From Deltaproteobacteria bacterium (lineage in GTDB: Bacteria; Desulfobacterota; Desulfarculia; JACQYL01): a stretch of DNA of 52,862 nucleotides. A program made the translations under genes and the position numbers. How positions within the stretch are numbered: the first letter of the stretch is position 1; every line of letters starts with the position of its first letter. Where the stretch lies: the NCBI GenBank assembly GCA_016208165.1, contig JACQYL010000118.1, positions 1 to 52,862 on the forward strand, given 5' to 3'. The notes beneath the pieces are model-generated. The model was not told where the DNA came from. It saw only the letters and a program-made list of their open reading frames with translations, and ran no database searches. Of the stretch, positions 12,750 through 20,229 are shown one piece after another.

Positions 12750-13091
12750 ATGCGATTTTGGCGACTTCCACTGGACGCAAAAGATCATTCCGTCCCAGTC
12801 GGAGAACTCCACATCATTGCGGATCGTTGCAAGGGTTGCGGGTTCTGTATTGAATTCTGCCCCAATAAAGTCCTCTTTGAATCCAAGATATTCAATGTAA
12901 AGGGATACCATCCTCCGGAGACGTTGCCCGGCCGGGAGCTCGAGTGCGTGAATTGCAACTTGTGTCAGGTCATCTGTCCCGAGTTCGCCATTTACAGCAC
13001 GCTGAAGCTTTCCAAGGAGCTGAGCAAAGAAGACATCATGCGATACAACGAGCTGATGAAGACACGGAGGAGAGACTATGTCCGTGAATGA
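12750..13091 (+). CDS. korD: 2-oxoacid:ferredoxin oxidoreductase, ferredoxin-like delta subunit
   Basis: A 113-residue 2[4Fe-4S] ferredoxin subunit, first gene of a seven- or eight-gene operon. Cluster ligands are C27-C30-C33-C37 (CKGCGFCIEFCP) and C66-C69-C72-C76 (CVNCNLCQVICP), with the long spacer (KGYHPPETLPGRELE) typical of KorD. It carries electrons from the TPP/Fe-S core of the enzyme to free ferredoxin. Its stop overlaps the korA start by 14 bases, so the two are translationally coupled. Confidence 0.93.
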   Translation: MRFWRLPLDAKDHSVPVGELHIIADRCKGCGFCIEFCPNKVLFESKIFNVKGYHPPETLPGRELECVNCNLCQVICPEFAIYSTLKLSKELSKEDIMRYNELMKTRRRDYVRE

Positions 13092-14235
13092 ACGGGCGGT
13101 GCTCACGGGCGAGCATTTCATGAATGGGGACGAGGCCAGCGCCGAGGGGGCGCTGGCGGCGGGCTGCGGTTTCTTTGCCGGATACCCGATCACTCCTGCC
13201 ACGGAGGTGGCCGAGCGAATGTCCAACCGCCTCCCCGAGATTGGAGGCGTCTTCATACAGATGGAAGATGAAATCGCTTCCATGGCGGCTCTCCTGGGCG
13301 CGTCCTGGGGCGGCGTAAAGGCGATGACGTCTACATCCGGCCCCGGCTTTTCTCTGATGATGGAGAACATCGGACTCGGTATGATGACGGAAACGCCGTG
13401 CGTGGTGGTGAACATCCAACGGGCGGGACCGTCTACGGGTTTGCCCACGTTGGTCGGGCAGGCGGATGTGATGCAGTGCCGATGGGGCTCCCATGGAGAT
13501 TACGGGGTGATCGCCTTGGCGCCGGGATCCGCTCAAGAGATGTTTGATCTCACCATTGAAGCCTTTAATCTTTCGGAAACGTATCGGCAGCCCGTATTCA
13601 TCATGTCCGATGAAATCGTAGGCCATATGTTTGAAAAGGTAGTGATCCCGCCCGCGGACCACATTCGATTGGTTCCCAGGCGTAAGCCTACAACAGAGCC
13701 GTGGGCCTGCATCCCGTTTCAGGCCGAAGATGGATTGGTGCCTCCCATGGCCTGTGCGGGAGAAGGATTCAGGGTGCATGTTACCGGGTTGACGCACGAC
13801 GAGATGGGCTATCCACACATCGTTCCTCCCACTCAGGAACGCCTTGTAAGGCGCCTGGTGGACAAGATCCGGCTGAATGCGCGGGATATTATCCGGTTGG
13901 AGTCCCATTTTCTTGAAGACGCGGAGACGGTGGTGGTCGCATACGGATGCGTGGCCCGGAGCGCGCGGGAGTCCGTTCAGCGGGCTCGTTCCAAAGGGCT
14001 CAAGGTGGGCATACTGCGACTGATCACGCTCTGGCCCTTTCCTACCGCTCTGATCCGGGAGCTGTCCAAAACAGTGCGAACGTTTGTGGTTCCGGAAATC
14101 AATTATGGGCAGATGGCCTACGAAGTGGAGCGATGTGCGGGGGATCGCGCTCAGACCGTACTGGTAGGAATGATGGGGGGAACCATGCACACGCCCACTG
14201 CAATTCTTGAAGTGATCGAGGAGTTTTCCAGATGA
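13078..14235 (+). CDS. korA: 2-oxoacid:ferredoxin oxidoreductase, alpha subunit
   Basis: A 385-residue alpha subunit of a 2-oxoglutarate-type ferredoxin oxidoreductase. It has the pyrimidine-binding transketolase-like domain: ASAEGALAAGCGFFAGYPITPATEVAERM near the N-terminus, QMEDEIASMAALLGASWGG with the catalytic-type glutamate, and the TSTSGPGFSLMMENIGLGMM signature. The C-terminal domain (ETVVVAYGCVARSARESVQ...LKVGILRLITLWPFP) matches the transketolase C-terminal fold. Overlaps korD at its start and korB by 4 bases (ATGA) at its end. 2-Oxoglutarate is the likely substrate from subunit order and length, but a branched or aryl 2-oxoacid is possible. Confidence 0.94.
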   Translation: MSVNERAVLTGEHFMNGDEASAEGALAAGCGFFAGYPITPATEVAERMSNRLPEIGGVFIQMEDEIASMAALLGASWGGVKAMTSTSGPGFSLMMENIGLGMMTETPCVVVNIQRAGPSTGLPTLVGQADVMQCRWGSHGDYGVIALAPGSAQEMFDLTIEAFNLSETYRQPVFIMSDEIVGHMFEKVVIPPADHIRLVPRRKPTTEPWACIPFQAEDGLVPPMACAGEGFRVHVTGLTHDEMGYPHIVPPTQERLVRRLVDKIRLNARDIIRLESHFLEDAETVVVAYGCVARSARESVQRARSKGLKVGILRLITLWPFPTALIRELSKTVRTFVVPEINYGQMAYEVERCAGDRAQTVLVGMMGGTMHTPTAILEVIEEFSR

Positions 14236-15125
14236 TTCGGCGTATGTCGGCCCTGGAGACGTTTGAAGCGTCGTGCCATCTCTCGCGGGACACGGAAAGG
14301 CATGGCGTCCATCCGGACGACGAATACCTGAAGCGCGGCCGAATTCCGCACATCTGGTGTTCGGGGTGCGGACTCGGAGTGGTGCTGAACGCGTTTATCC
14401 AAGCGCTCAAGGTGCGGGAGATTCCTCCTGACAAGGCGCCAGTAGTATCAGGGATCGGATGTTCGGGGCGCGCCGCCGGTTATCTCAATCTTGATACGTA
14501 TCACACGACCCATGGACGGGGGATTCCGTTCGCCACCGGGTTGGCTCTGGCAAGGCCGGATCTCACGGTGACGGTTTTCAGCGGGGATGGGGACCTCTTT
14601 GCCATTGGGGGCAATCACCTTATCCACGCGGCCCGGCGAAACGTCGACGTAAAAGTCATCTGTGTGAACAATTTCAATTACGGCATGACCGGCGGTCAAT
14701 CGGCTCCAACCACTCCGCTCGAATCTCGGACGTCCACCACACCGTATGGAAACGTCGAATATCCGTTCAACCTGGTAGGATTGGCGGGTGCGGCCGGCGC
14801 CGTATATGTGGCTCGTTGGACCACTTTTCATGTGCGTTTTCTGGTGGACAGCATTTCCGAAGCCCTTGCGAAGCCGGGTTTTACATTTATCGAGGTACTT
14901 GCGCCATGCCCGACCGGATACAACCGTCGCAATAAGTTGGGCCAGGGGTTGGATACCATGAAATTGTACCGCGAGAATAGTGTGATCCAGCATGGGATAC
15001 CGCCTCAACAGGCGGAATTGGATCTGCGGAGGCGCATCGTGGTGGGAAAGTTCGTTGACATGGAAAAGCCCACGTTCCGGCGAGAGTACGAAAATCTGGT
15101 CCAGCAGAAAGCGAGGAAGTCGTGA
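14232..15125 (+). CDS. korB: 2-oxoacid:ferredoxin oxidoreductase, beta (TPP-binding) subunit
   Basis: A 297-residue beta subunit. The TPP-binding motif is seen as GDGDLFAIGGNHLIHAARRNVDVKVICVNNFNYGMTGGQ, including the GDG start and NN end with YGMTGGQ. Cysteine motifs WCSGCGLG near residue 40 and GIGCSGRAAGYLN near 78 would bind the subunit's [4Fe-4S] cluster. A short extension of about 30 residues precedes the usual N-terminus (KRGRIPHIWCSGCG). Start and stop overlap korA and korC by 4 bases each, as in a tightly coupled operon. Confidence 0.94.
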   Translation: MIRRMSALETFEASCHLSRDTERHGVHPDDEYLKRGRIPHIWCSGCGLGVVLNAFIQALKVREIPPDKAPVVSGIGCSGRAAGYLNLDTYHTTHGRGIPFATGLALARPDLTVTVFSGDGDLFAIGGNHLIHAARRNVDVKVICVNNFNYGMTGGQSAPTTPLESRTSTTPYGNVEYPFNLVGLAGAAGAVYVARWTTFHVRFLVDSISEALAKPGFTFIEVLAPCPTGYNRRNKLGQGLDTMKLYRENSVIQHGIPPQQAELDLRRRIVVGKFVDMEKPTFRREYENLVQQKARKS

Positions 15126-15682
15126 CCGAGAAGAACGACGGTAAGCTTGAACTGCGCATGGCCGGGTTTGGCGGGCAGGGCATCGTCCTGGCCGGAAACA
15201 TTTTGGGGAAAGCCGCGGCTCTGTACGAGGGCCTCAACGCGGTGTTCACTCAAAGTTACGGACCGGAAGCCCGTGGAGGCTCTTGCAGTGCGGATGTCAT
15301 CATTTCGACCGAAGCCATTTACTATCCCAGAGTCGCACAGCCTAAGGTGCTGGTGCTGATGAGCGAGGACGCCAAGAATACCTACGGTCCGAATACGGCC
15401 GAGAACGGGAGCATCCTGATCGACGAAGACCTGGTTCAGCTTGAACAGCCGCCCAAAAACACCAGGTTGTACAAAATACCTTCCACTCGGATTGCCGAAA
15501 ATCTGGGCCGAAAGATCGTGGCCAACATCGTTATGTTGGGCTTCATCACCGCCGTCACGGGTATCATTGGTTACGAGTCCATGAAGAAAGCGATCCTGGC
15601 CAGCATTCCACCGGGAACGGAAAAGCTCAATCTGAGCGCCTTCGATGAAGGCTATAACTACGGTAATAGCAAGTATCCTTGA
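15122..15682 (+). CDS. korC: 2-oxoacid:ferredoxin oxidoreductase, gamma subunit
   Basis: A 186-residue gamma subunit, beginning with GTG in a GTGA overlap with korB and RBS GAGGAAG inside korB. It has the family's GFGGQGIVLAGNILGKAAALYEG start, QSYGPEARGGSCSADVIIS and the ANIVMLGF central strand. This subunit completes the KorDABC complex, which splits 2-oxoacid and CoA into acyl-CoA, CO2 and reduced ferredoxin. The next gene, the HdrA fusion, follows after 45 bases, so the reduced ferredoxin may be delivered directly to an Hdr complex. Confidence 0.93.
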   Translation: MTEKNDGKLELRMAGFGGQGIVLAGNILGKAAALYEGLNAVFTQSYGPEARGGSCSADVIISTEAIYYPRVAQPKVLVLMSEDAKNTYGPNTAENGSILIDEDLVQLEQPPKNTRLYKIPSTRIAENLGRKIVANIVMLGFITAVTGIIGYESMKKAILASIPPGTEKLNLSAFDEGYNYGNSKYP

Positions 15683-15727
15683 TGCATATCTGAACGGGAG
15701 TCAGAGGTCTAGGGTCTTCGGTTCCAC

Positions 15728-18175
15728 ATGAGAAGGAGATGGTGCGAGTTGCACGTAACACATGGTAAATTGAAAGAAAAGCCGAAAATTGGCGTCTTTG
15801 TATGTCATTGCGGACTGAACATCGGCGGCGTGGTGGATGTACAGAAAGTGGCCGATTTCGCCGCGACACTTCCGGATGTGGCATTCGCTTCCGCAAATCT
15901 CTACACGTGCTCTCAGCCGGGCCAGGAGGAGATAAAAAAGGCCATTCGGGAAAAGGATCTCAATCGGGTGGTGGTTGCCTCGTGCACACCCCGTCTTCAC
16001 GAACCCACTTTCAGGGCGGCGTGTGAGCAAAGCGGATTGAATCCCTATCTGTTCGAGATGGCCAACATCCGGGAACACTGCTCGTGGGTGCACCTCTACG
16101 ACAAAGAGGGCGCGACTCAAAAGGCCATGGACCTGGTTCAGATGGCCGTGACGCGATCGAGGCTTCTGGAGCCACAGGTCGAAAGCTCCGTTCCCGTAAT
16201 CGATCGGGCGCTGGTGATCGGCGGTGGAGTTGCCGGCATTCAGGCCGCCCTGGATTTGGCGGACTCCGGGTTCAAGGTCTACCTCGTGGAACGCACTGCG
16301 AGCATCGGCGGCCGTATGGCCCAGATCGACAAGACGTTTCCCACCATGGACTGTTCTATTTGTATACTCGCCCCGAAAATGGCGGAGGTGGGTCGGCATC
16401 CCAACATTGAATTGCTTACCATGAGTGAAGTGGAGAAGGTGGAAGGGTATGTAGGCAATTTTAGAGTGAAAGTAAGACGTAAAGCCCGTTACGTGACGGA
16501 TGACTGCACCTCTTGCGGGGATTGCGTCAAGGAATGCCCCCAACTTGCTCCCGATGAATTTAACGAGGGTCTCTCGACACGTCGCGCCATTTTCATCCCT
16601 TTCGCTCAGGCCGTGCCCTCGTCGTATGTGATCGACATGGATCTATGCCTGAATAAAGAAGGGATCGTGGCGTGCGACAAGTGTTTTCACGCCTGCAAAG
16701 CCCGTTGTATTGACTTCTCCCAAAAGGAGGAAGAACTCGAACTGGACGTCGGCGCCATCATCGTGGCCACCGGGGTGGATGTGTATGATCCTTCTCCCCT
16801 CACGGAAATCGGGTACCGCAGGTTTCCCAATGTCATTACCAGTCTTGAGTTCGAACGACTCATCAATGCCGGCGGTCCCTCTCAGGGAAATTTGATCCGG
16901 CCTTCGGACCAGACGGCGCCCAAAAGGGTGGCCTTTCTTCAGTGCATCGGCTCCCGATCCACTCGCGCCAACAAATATTGCAGCAATATCTGCTGCATGA
17001 ACACCATCAAAGATTCCCTGTTGATCAAAGAGCACTGGCCCGAAACGGAGATCAAAGTTTTCTATATCGATATACGCGCGTTCGGAAAGGGCTTCGAAGA
17101 CCTGTTTCGACGGGCAAGGCGGGAGGGCGTCGAATTCATTCGCGGCATTCCCGGAGAGATCATCGAGGACCCGGAAACCCACGACCTCACTCTTATCGGT
17201 GAAAATATGCTCCTGGGCGAGTGGTATAAGTACCAGGTGGATATGGCGATCCTGAGCGTAGGCATCGAACCCCGGAGGGACAGTAAGCATCTCCAGCAAA
17301 TCTTGAATCTTTCGACGGGGAAAGACGGCTTCTTTCTTGAAGCTCATCCCAAACTCAGACCGGTGGACACGGCCACGAGCGGCATCTTTTTGGCCGGCGG
17401 CGCGGAAGGACCGAAGGACATTAAGGACAGCGTCACTCAGGCCAGCGCGGCCGCCAGCCGGGCGGGCATTCTCATGACTCGGGGCGAGGTGAAGGTCGAG
17501 GCCATTACCGCTCGCGCGGACCCCGAGAAGTGCACCGGTTGCGGGATGTGCGTCGAAGTGTGCCCGTATAAGGCGATTCGTAAGGACGACGAAACGGGAG
17601 TCATCCATATTATTGAAGCCTCGTGCGCCGGGTGCGGAACGTGCGCCGCCGAATGCCGATTCGGGGCCATCAAAATGCGTCACTACAGCGACGAGCAAAT
17701 CTATGCTCAGATCGCTTCCGTAACCCGACAAGCCTCGGAAAAGAAAATCGTGGCTTTCTGTTGCAACTGGTGCTCGTATGCCGGCGCTGACTTTGCCGGG
17801 GTGAGCCGAATTCAATATCCTTCCCAGGTGCGCATTATTCGAACCATGTGCTCGGGAAGGGTCAGCATGGATTTCATCCGGTTTGCCTTTGCCCGGGGAG
17901 CCGGCGCGGTGCTGGTCAGTGGCTGCCACCCGGCGGATTGCCACTATATCAACGCCAACATGCAGACGGAAAAGCGGGTAAAGCGGCTCTGGAAGGAGAT
18001 GCAGAAAAAAGGGCTCGACGTTGATCGTTTACAGCTGGCTTGGATCAGCGCAGCCGAGGGGCGCCGTTTTGCGGGGGTCATCCAAAAGATGGCGGATCAC
18101 CTCGAGCAGGTTTCCGGGAAAGAGCTTCAAAAGACCCGTGCTGCATACGAGAAGTTTCTCGGGAAGGAGCCTTGA
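15728..18175 (+). CDS. hdrA: Heterodisulfide reductase subunit A fused to MvhD
   Basis: An 815-residue cytosolic flavin and Fe-S protein. Visible in order: an N-terminal HdrA region with VCHCGLNIGG and ASCTPRLHEPTFR; the FAD Rossmann motif VIGGGVAGIQAALDLADSG (about 161-179) with GGRMAQIDKTFPTMDCSICILAPKM; an inserted cluster motif CTSCGDCVKECP; a flavoprotein core with FLQCIGSRS and IFLAGGAEGPKDI; two ferredoxin motifs (CTGCGMCVEVCP and CAGCGTCAAEC, about 600-645); and a C-terminal MvhD domain (FCCNWCSYAGADFAG, CSGRV, GCHPADCHY). HdrA is the flavin bifurcation site and MvhD is its electron entry. Start: AAGGAG lies just inside the ATG 15728 and before TTG 15749, so TTG 15749 may be the true start. 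Cysteines stand where some relatives have selenocysteine. Confidence 0.94.
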   Translation: MRRRWCELHVTHGKLKEKPKIGVFVCHCGLNIGGVVDVQKVADFAATLPDVAFASANLYTCSQPGQEEIKKAIREKDLNRVVVASCTPRLHEPTFRAACEQSGLNPYLFEMANIREHCSWVHLYDKEGATQKAMDLVQMAVTRSRLLEPQVESSVPVIDRALVIGGGVAGIQAALDLADSGFKVYLVERTASIGGRMAQIDKTFPTMDCSICILAPKMAEVGRHPNIELLTMSEVEKVEGYVGNFRVKVRRKARYVTDDCTSCGDCVKECPQLAPDEFNEGLSTRRAIFIPFAQAVPSSYVIDMDLCLNKEGIVACDKCFHACKARCIDFSQKEEELELDVGAIIVATGVDVYDPSPLTEIGYRRFPNVITSLEFERLINAGGPSQGNLIRPSDQTAPKRVAFLQCIGSRSTRANKYCSNICCMNTIKDSLLIKEHWPETEIKVFYIDIRAFGKGFEDLFRRARREGVEFIRGIPGEIIEDPETHDLTLIGENMLLGEWYKYQVDMAILSVGIEPRRDSKHLQQILNLSTGKDGFFLEAHPKLRPVDTATSGIFLAGGAEGPKDIKDSVTQASAAASRAGILMTRGEVKVEAITARADPEKCTGCGMCVEVCPYKAIRKDDETGVIHIIEASCAGCGTCAAECRFGAIKMRHYSDEQIYAQIASVTRQASEKKIVAFCCNWCSYAGADFAGVSRIQYPSQVRIIRTMCSGRVSMDFIRFAFARGAGAVLVSGCHPADCHYINANMQTEKRVKRLWKEMQKKGLDVDRLQLAWISAAEGRRFAGVIQKMADHLEQVSGKELQKTRAAYEKFLGKEP

Positions 18176-18177
18176 TT

Positions 18178-18648
18178 ATGTCCGTCAAAAAGGTATGGAC
18201 CATATTCGATCGAAGCCAGCTTTATGAATGCTATGAGTGTTCCAGATGCAGTGGAAGCTGTCCGGCTACTCTGGCCCACCATGGCTTGGGACCGCGGAAA
18301 ATCTTGCTCAAATGCCTTCAGCAGGGCCAGGAGGCCGTCATCGAAGACCCCGCCATCTGGTACTGTACCACTTGTATGGTGTGCCAAGATCGGTGTCCGC
18401 AGGAAATCAACATACCGGAACTGTTGACCGGGCTCTGAAACATCGGCGCACAAAAAGGCAATGTTCCGGAAAAGGTAAAATTCGCCGTCGAGAAAATCGC
18501 CAAGACGGGAAGATCCCTGCTCACGTTCCGGGTCGAGCGTGAACGCGAACGTTACGGCTTGCCGCCTTTGCAGGAGATCGACACCGATGAAGTCTCCAGG
18601 ATTCTCACGGAGACGGGATTTTTCAAAGATCTGAAAATAGTTCTCTAA
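18178..18648 (+). pseudogene. hdrC: Heterodisulfide reductase subunit C interrupted by an in-frame TGA
   Basis: Codons 1-86 encode an HdrC-like dicluster ferredoxin: C18-C21-C24-C28 (CYECSRCSGSCP) and C63-C66-C69-C73 (CTTCMVCQDRCP), ending IPELLTGL. Codon 87 (18436-18438) is TGA. The same frame then runs on for 69 codons to TAA 18648, reading NIGAQKGNVPEKVKF...RYGLPPLQEIDTDEV...GFFKDLKIVL, which resembles the normal C-terminal part of bacterial HdrC. Both halves match in frame, so it is a single-codon lesion (CGA to TGA is simplest), a sequencing error, or recoding. No good SECIS-like stem follows. The truncated product would keep both clusters. It links HdrA to HdrB in the complex. If the TGA is real, annotate CDS 18178-18438. 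Confidence 0.85.
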
Positions 18649-18677
18649 CCTGCCAATTCGTATACGGAACCCGTAAG

Positions 18678-19601
18678 ATGTCATTAAAATACGCCTTTTT
18701 TCCCGGTTGCGTCATTCCGACAAAATATCCGCATTTTGAACGTGCTACAAGGGCTGTGGCCGAGATCTTGAATGTAGAGCTCGTGGACTTGCCTTTCAGC
18801 TGCTGTCCGCCCACTTCCAACATGAAACTCGTGCATTACGATTCATGGTTGGCCCTGGCGGTGCGTAACCTCTGTATAGCCGAAGAGCAGGGTTTGAATA
18901 TCTTGACGACGTGCACCGGCTGCGTCAGCACGCTCAAAGAGGCGAACCATATTATGCAGGAAAGGCCGAATCGGCGTCGCAAGGTGAACCGCATACTCAA
19001 GAAGGTTGGAAAACAGTACGAAGGCACCATACAAATCAAACACTTGCTGGACGCGCTCTATGACGACGTCGGTCTGGACGCCATTGCCGAAAAGTGCGTG
19101 TACAACTTGAATATGAAGATCGCGTGCCACTATGGCTGCCACCTGTTTCGACCCTCCTACATCCTTTATCCGGAATTCCTGTCTCCCGCGCACAGCTATG
19201 TACCCACCTCGATGGAAGAGATCATCGAGGTTTTAGGCGGGGAGCCCGTAGATTTCATGCGGAGGTTCTTGTGTTGCGGGTATCCTCTGGGTGCAAACGT
19301 GGACGAAGACGGTTCGTACGACATCCTTCGCGAGAAACTGCACTACATCAACGCCTCGAGCGCGGAACTCATTTCGGTTGCGTGCGCATCGTGCTTCGAG
19401 CAGTTCGAATTGGGCCAGGTGATGATCAAAAAGAAGTACAAAGAGAGCTATGAATTTCCCACGTTGTATATTTCTCAGCTGATAGGCCTGGCCATGGGGT
19501 TGGGGCACAAAGAGCTGGGGCTCAAAGAACACATCCATAAAGTCAAAAGACTTCTCCCCAAGCTGGAAGAACGGGGCGACGAGAAACGAGCCTCCATATA
19601 G
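18678..19601 (+). CDS. hdrB: Heterodisulfide reductase subunit B
   Basis: A 307-residue protein with the two CCG domains that bind the non-cubane [4Fe-4S] clusters in HdrB. Domain 1: FFPGCVIPTKYPHFE, then FSCCPPTSNMK, then TTCTGCVSTLKEAN. Domain 2: ACHYGCHLFRPS, then FLCCGYPLGANVDED, then ACASCFEQFELGQ. HdrB is the site that reduces a disulfide or other two-electron acceptor; in non-methanogens that acceptor is generally unknown. The full length and intact cysteines argue that the complex is functional, which makes the broken hdrC upstream suspicious as a sequence error. Follows hdrC after 29 bases in the same operon. Confidence 0.93.
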   Translation: MSLKYAFFPGCVIPTKYPHFERATRAVAEILNVELVDLPFSCCPPTSNMKLVHYDSWLALAVRNLCIAEEQGLNILTTCTGCVSTLKEANHIMQERPNRRRKVNRILKKVGKQYEGTIQIKHLLDALYDDVGLDAIAEKCVYNLNMKIACHYGCHLFRPSYILYPEFLSPAHSYVPTSMEEIIEVLGGEPVDFMRRFLCCGYPLGANVDEDGSYDILREKLHYINASSAELISVACASCFEQFELGQVMIKKKYKESYEFPTLYISQLIGLAMGLGHKELGLKEHIHKVKRLLPKLEERGDEKRASI

Positions 19602-19677
19602 ACGGGGTGCCGTCCAAGACGTGGTGAGGTCGACGGCGGGGCGGGGCCTTTGATATCCTTCAGGAGTACAATTTGCC

Positions 19678-20229
19678 GTGTACGAAAATCAGAAATACGA
19701 ACCCGGTAAGAGACGCAGGAAAGGCTTGGTCCACTCTGTCTTCGGAACAGGACCCGGCAAAACAAGCCGGGCCGTGGGTCTGGCCGTGCGAATGGTTGGC
19801 GCCGGCGGCAAGGTCACGTTCGTTCAATTCATGAAATCCGGGGATTCGGCGGAGGTGGGGGTCCTGAAACAACTGCCGGGGATGCAATACCTCTGTCCCG
19901 GGACGATGCCTTTCATTTTGCCCAAAGGACCCAAGGCGGAACACTACAATCATGCTCAGAAAGCGATGGCCTGGTCATATGAACACTCGCGGAACGAGTG
20001 TGACCTTCTGATCTGCGACGAGATTCTAGATGCTTTGTACTTCAATCTGGTGAAACCGGATCAGCTGAAGGAACTGATTGTGGGGAAACGGGAGGAAACG
20101 GAGCTGGTTCTCACTGGAGCCTTTTTGCCGCAGGAGGTCGCGGCGCTTTCGGACTATGTAACTCAATTGATCCAGATCAAGCATCCCTATTACACAGGCG
20201 TCGACGCGCGAAAGGGGATTGAGTATTAG
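19678..20229 (+). CDS. cobO: Cob(I)yrinic acid a,c-diamide adenosyltransferase (CobO/BtuR type)
   Basis: A 183-residue protein of the CobA/CobO/BtuR adenosyltransferase family, which makes adenosylcobamides from ATP and cob(I)amide. Start is GTG 19678, with AGGAG 9 bases upstream. The family P-loop, usually GNGKGKTT, reads GTGPGKTS here: the GxGxGKT frame is kept but the first lysine is Pro. Later motifs VTFVQFMKSG, DLLICDEILDAL and LVLTGAFLPQEV fit the family (usually DEINxAL and LILTGR). Lies 76 bases after hdrB and before a strong terminator, so it may be the last gene of the kor-hdr operon. The motif drift makes a changed specificity possible. Confidence 0.85.
   Translation: MYENQKYEPGKRRRKGLVHSVFGTGPGKTSRAVGLAVRMVGAGGKVTFVQFMKSGDSAEVGVLKQLPGMQYLCPGTMPFILPKGPKAEHYNHAQKAMAWSYEHSRNECDLLICDEILDALYFNLVKPDQLKELIVGKREETELVLTGAFLPQEVAALSDYVTQLIQIKHPYYTGVDARKGIEY

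Follow-up and report, generated by a model that had tools for sequence, protein, structure and literature searches.

A described counterpart of the gene reported here is HdrC of the methanogen HdrABC complex (PDB 5odc and 7bkb, with electron-input modules), a subunit in which two CxxCxxCxxxCP motifs are followed by a C-terminal region and whose gene has hdrA and hdrB as neighbours. The gene described below shares this layout and these neighbours but, in contrast to the methanogen system, it is bacterial, scores below the equivalog cut-offs, adjoins genes for a 2-oxoacid:acceptor oxidoreductase, and is interrupted by an in-frame TGA. In-frame TGA codons in the Hdr system have a precedent, as HdrA and FlpD/MvhD (FrhD) are known selenoprotein families of the Deltaproteobacteria (PMC1794560, PMC13188914). 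Our case resembles these families in being an Hdr-system gene with an in-frame TGA in a genome holding selenocysteine (Sec) machinery, and differs from them in the gene concerned (hdrC), in the position, which is not a Cys, and in lacking both a SECIS element and any TGA-bearing homolog. A third class of comparable cases is that of nonsense-interrupted genes in metagenome-assembled genomes, with which hdrC shares a single in-frame stop, homology on both sides of it, intact orthologs, an undecayed downstream part, and other local assembly defects; no tested difference separates it from them.

The window (the whole stretch of 52,862 nucleotides that was analysed) is one contig, C118, of the draft genome of an uncultured anaerobe (5.69 Mb in 142 contigs, estimated to be 95.5% complete). 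The interrupted gene belongs to the following run of genes:

12750-15682, plus strand: korDABG-like 2-oxoacid:acceptor oxidoreductase genes (korD-, korA-, korB- and korG-like)
15728-18175, plus strand: hdrA2-FlpD fusion; the known Sec position of HdrA is occupied by Cys rather than Sec
18178-18648, plus strand: hdrC-like gene for a heterodisulfide reductase subunit C homolog, with an interruption; its frame counts 156 codons when the TGA is disregarded
18178-18435, plus strand: N-terminal part of hdrC, 86 codons, with both 4Fe-4S motifs
18436-18438, plus strand: in-frame TGA, codon 87 of hdrC
18439-18645, plus strand: hdrC tail, 69 codons, matching the HdrC C-terminus, undecayed
18678-19601, plus strand: hdrB, with two CCG domains, intact
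19678-20229, plus strand: cobO

The frame of hdrC opens with the ATG at 18178-18180 and closes with the TAA at 18646-18648. The two CxxCxxCxxxCP motifs of its product (C18-C28 and C63-C73) are both N-terminal to the TGA, which is located 14 residues past the last cluster ligand. The first-pass annotation had described a TGA interrupting the frame within an operon that is intact in other respects, at a position other than a CxxC ligand, and both statements hold, with the genes on either side being open. The product scores above the Pfam cut-off for Fer4_8 and matches the HdrC model TIGR03290 (E 3e-26, 92 bits) without reaching its equivalog cut-off of 160, which represents methanogen HdrC. Judged by these matches, it can be regarded as an HdrC homolog; a score below the cut-off does not imply action on CoM-S-S-CoB. 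The two 4Fe-4S motifs, the C-terminal region and the adjoining hdrA and hdrB genes expected of an HdrC are all present, the full length requiring that the TGA be read through. On the opposite strand, a long frame spans hdrC (18127-18684); it was rejected as a shadow, given that the relatives and the window do not jointly keep it open, and a scan for promoters and terminators around hdrC revealed nothing above chance.

The sequence following the TGA encodes peptides such as SLLTFR and YGLPPLQEIDTDEVSR. When the tail alone was compared with that of the nearest relative, 47 of 67 residues were identical (70%, E 7e-35 for the pair), bearing out the proposal that the 69 sense codons after the TGA resemble an HdrC C-terminus. 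In addition, the alignments with the solved HdrC chains 5odc_C, 8rvu_c and 8rvv_C cross the TGA and reach query residue 148. On the strength of these sequence comparisons, the tail is a true C-terminal part of HdrC, and its frame is not open by mere chance.

Thirteen orthologs of hdrC (L054, L010 and L066-L076) and six more distant homologs, 19 sequences in total, were used to examine codon 87. In all 13 orthologs this position is a sense codon followed by a further 67-69 residues, so that none of them ends HdrC there. Relatives whose HdrC stops at this place had been named beforehand as a refutation of the first-pass reading, and this refutation fails. The residue is Arg in L054 and L070-L073, Met in L010 and L074-L076, Phe in L066-L069, and Lys in the six distant homologs; neither Cys nor Trp occurs at this position among the 19 homologs. 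Of the two residues anticipated at this codon, Arg or Trp, only Arg is encountered: L054, the closest relative, has it, as does one ortholog group. In the nearest relative the codon for this Arg is one substitution away from TGA. Searches of the class, of a sample of the phylum and of the genome contigs yielded no TGA-bearing hdrC among the orthologs, and those of the class and phylum found no relative nearer than the same class.

The tail exhibits no sign of decay. When it and the uninterrupted L054 tail (that of the nearest relative) are each compared with the other 12 orthologs, it has the higher number of matching residues in 11 cases, and only with L073 the lower (25 versus 26). Before and after the TGA alike, the window and L054 differ mainly at the third base of codons (in the tail, 16, 13 and 40 differences at first, second and third positions); dS estimated by NG86 is saturated for this pair and gives no dN/dS value. 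An undecayed tail leaves four possibilities: a stop of very recent date, one carried by a fraction of the population, one confined to the consensus, or one that is read through. Translation restart was also considered: the first 40 codons after the TGA contain no in-frame start, and ATG and GTG are absent in frame from the whole remainder of hdrC. As only TTG codons (18559 and 18568) are available in the tail, a second polypeptide covering it is not expected.

According to these data, the TGA of hdrC is very probably an ordinary single-base nonsense codon that is not recoded, originated either by a recent mutation (or strain variant) or by an error in the draft consensus. To assess how frequent such stops are, the genome was compared with the proteins of a relative's genome (G438), since codon-usage scans for interrupted genes had provided too little signal. 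The comparison covered some 227 homologous regions (215 kb) and yielded a single in-frame stop that is flanked by well-matching sequence and does not fall on a Cys, namely the hdrC TGA. That there is only one argues against TGA being recoded on a wide scale and against frequent point errors.

Other defects are present in the assembly. It contains 15 runs of N in 1.59 Mb, not all of which are necessarily assembly gaps. The single copy of selA that was found (C48:84608-85842, L056/L057) has an out-of-frame internal deletion near 84757-84772, where about 50 profile positions close to the N-terminus are missing and the frame changes, while the gene is intact in three other genomes. Similarly, a NuoF/HoxF-like gene on the minus strand of C109, near 31670 (L215), has lost about 50 codons out of frame directly after a G-rich stretch. 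The break in selA is probably an assembly defect; that it occurs in a genome in which several Sec genes exist suggests that breaks of this kind can be assembly defects. If those Sec genes function, selA must do so too.

The N-runs and the deletions in selA and in the NuoF-like gene count in favour of the explanation given above (a nonsense mutation or a consensus error). Against it, the known defects are gaps and deletions rather than substitutions, and point errors of this type are rare in the assembly (one such stop in about 227 regions). On balance, a local consensus error appears about as probable as a real nonsense change, whether a very recent mutation or a strain variant. In either case, hdrC would have been under selection until very recently, or would still be intact in most cells of the population. 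If the TGA is really present in the cell, translation would end at residue 86, originating a two-cluster fragment devoid of the C-terminal 44% of HdrC. The HdrABC complex, and with it the coupling to the 2-oxoacid oxidoreductase encoded alongside, would most probably suffer from such a truncation, and the fragment would not be expected to replace HdrC. No hdrC paralog in the genome exceeds 35% identity, and hence no close spare copy explains a loss of the gene.

The least improbable of the alternatives is that near-cognate tRNAs read through the TGA at a level that provides enough full-length HdrC, the stop being tolerated or even setting the subunit ratio. Low-level UGA readthrough is general in bacteria, and an undecayed tail is what this mechanism would produce, but a recent or consensus-only change accounts for the intact tail equally well. 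Moreover, the stop is found in no relative and thus shows no sign of conservation, and a TGA followed by A is not known as a strongly leaky context. Leaky readthrough is consequently considered very unlikely.

A second alternative is that the Sec machinery inserts selenocysteine at this TGA, HdrC being a selenoprotein like its sisters HdrA and FlpD. The genome encodes tRNA-Sec (77 bits) and SelB (384 bits), and so holds the machinery, even though selA carries the out-of-frame deletion mentioned above. It also appears to use selenocysteine in sister Hdr genes, as five likely Sec-UGA codons were identified from the alignment of a TGA with Cys, two of them in HdrA (C29:47625, L087; C5:2981, L104) and three in FlpD/MvhD domains (C5:1443 and C5:6122, L104; C72:18782, L107), to which the operon of hdrC is functionally related. 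Nevertheless, the hdrC TGA is aligned with Arg, Met, Phe or Lys and never with Cys, no relative shares it, and HdrC goes unmentioned in the two surveys of selenoproteins (PMC13188914 and PMC1794560). The search for sel genes that had been recommended finds selB and selA, next to tRNA-Sec, and would have misled on its own, given that the hdrC TGA fails the tests for Sec.

The RNA downstream of the TGA points in the same direction. The published bacterial SECIS model (PMC13188914) comprises an apical loop of 3-9 nt with a G in its first two positions, located 16-37 nt from the UGA, on an upper stem of 4-16 bp, with a minimum free energy of -7.5 kcal/mol or lower. The Sec sites of this genome and of G438, taken as internal controls, are followed by SECIS-like hairpins of -8.0 to -17.4 kcal/mol, all within the energy limit, whose apical loops are typically separated from the UGA by 22-27 nt, with a shorter distance of 13 nt for the best loop of C72. 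By contrast, the best hairpin of this type at the hdrC TGA reaches only -6.8 kcal/mol with an upper stem of 2 bp, short of both limits, and the downstream fold is no better than shuffled sequences (z 0.04). The AACAT/ATGTT hairpin noticed in the first-pass annotation does exist, and its 17-base loop is outside the model, so that the initial judgement that no convincing SECIS is present has been confirmed against both the published model and the controls. Hairpin energy by itself discriminates poorly, the median at randomly chosen sites of this operon being -8.4 kcal/mol; the non-Cys residue and the lack of TGA-bearing homologs weigh more. Altogether, insertion of Sec at this codon is extremely improbable.

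The proposal that the TGA is the true end, and that a short two-cluster HdrC works without the C-terminal part, is scarcely credible: both cluster motifs do precede the stop, as had been pointed out, while the sufficiency hinted at for such a product finds no support, as an HdrC that short is seen neither among the relatives nor among the solved structures. The 69 further codons keep the family sequence undecayed, a C-terminal region is present in all orthologs and in the solved HdrC chains that were matched, and hdrB starts only after the full-length end.

An isolated TGA in an Hdr gene is a tempting candidate for recoding where sister Hdr genes use Sec-UGA, and the internal controls, which point to an ordinary stop, advise caution in such cases; draft genomes of this kind can carry breaks in genes expected to be functional. 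That UGA is read as a sense residue in HdrC, whether as Sec without a canonical SECIS or by programmed readthrough, is highly unlikely; if true, it would represent a newly recoded site at a non-Cys position in a selenoprotein-rich anaerobe.

Two further observations concern the relatives. The nearest relative (contig JAOZOW010000053.1, L054/L137) has its genes in the same korDABG-hdrA-hdrC-hdrB order, with protein identities of about 70-82%, and the conserved run of korDABG-like, hdrA2-FlpD, hdrC and hdrB genes (12750-20229 in the window) may encode a 2-oxoacid-linked Hdr complex for electron bifurcation or confurcation. G438 exhibits similar sites with a TGA at a Cys position (L134, L141 and L151), and on the minus strand of L136, at 12195, an RnfB-like Fe-S domain (LAGAQ*GGCGYAGCEA) has an in-frame TGA opposite a Cys, which makes this protein a candidate selenoprotein.
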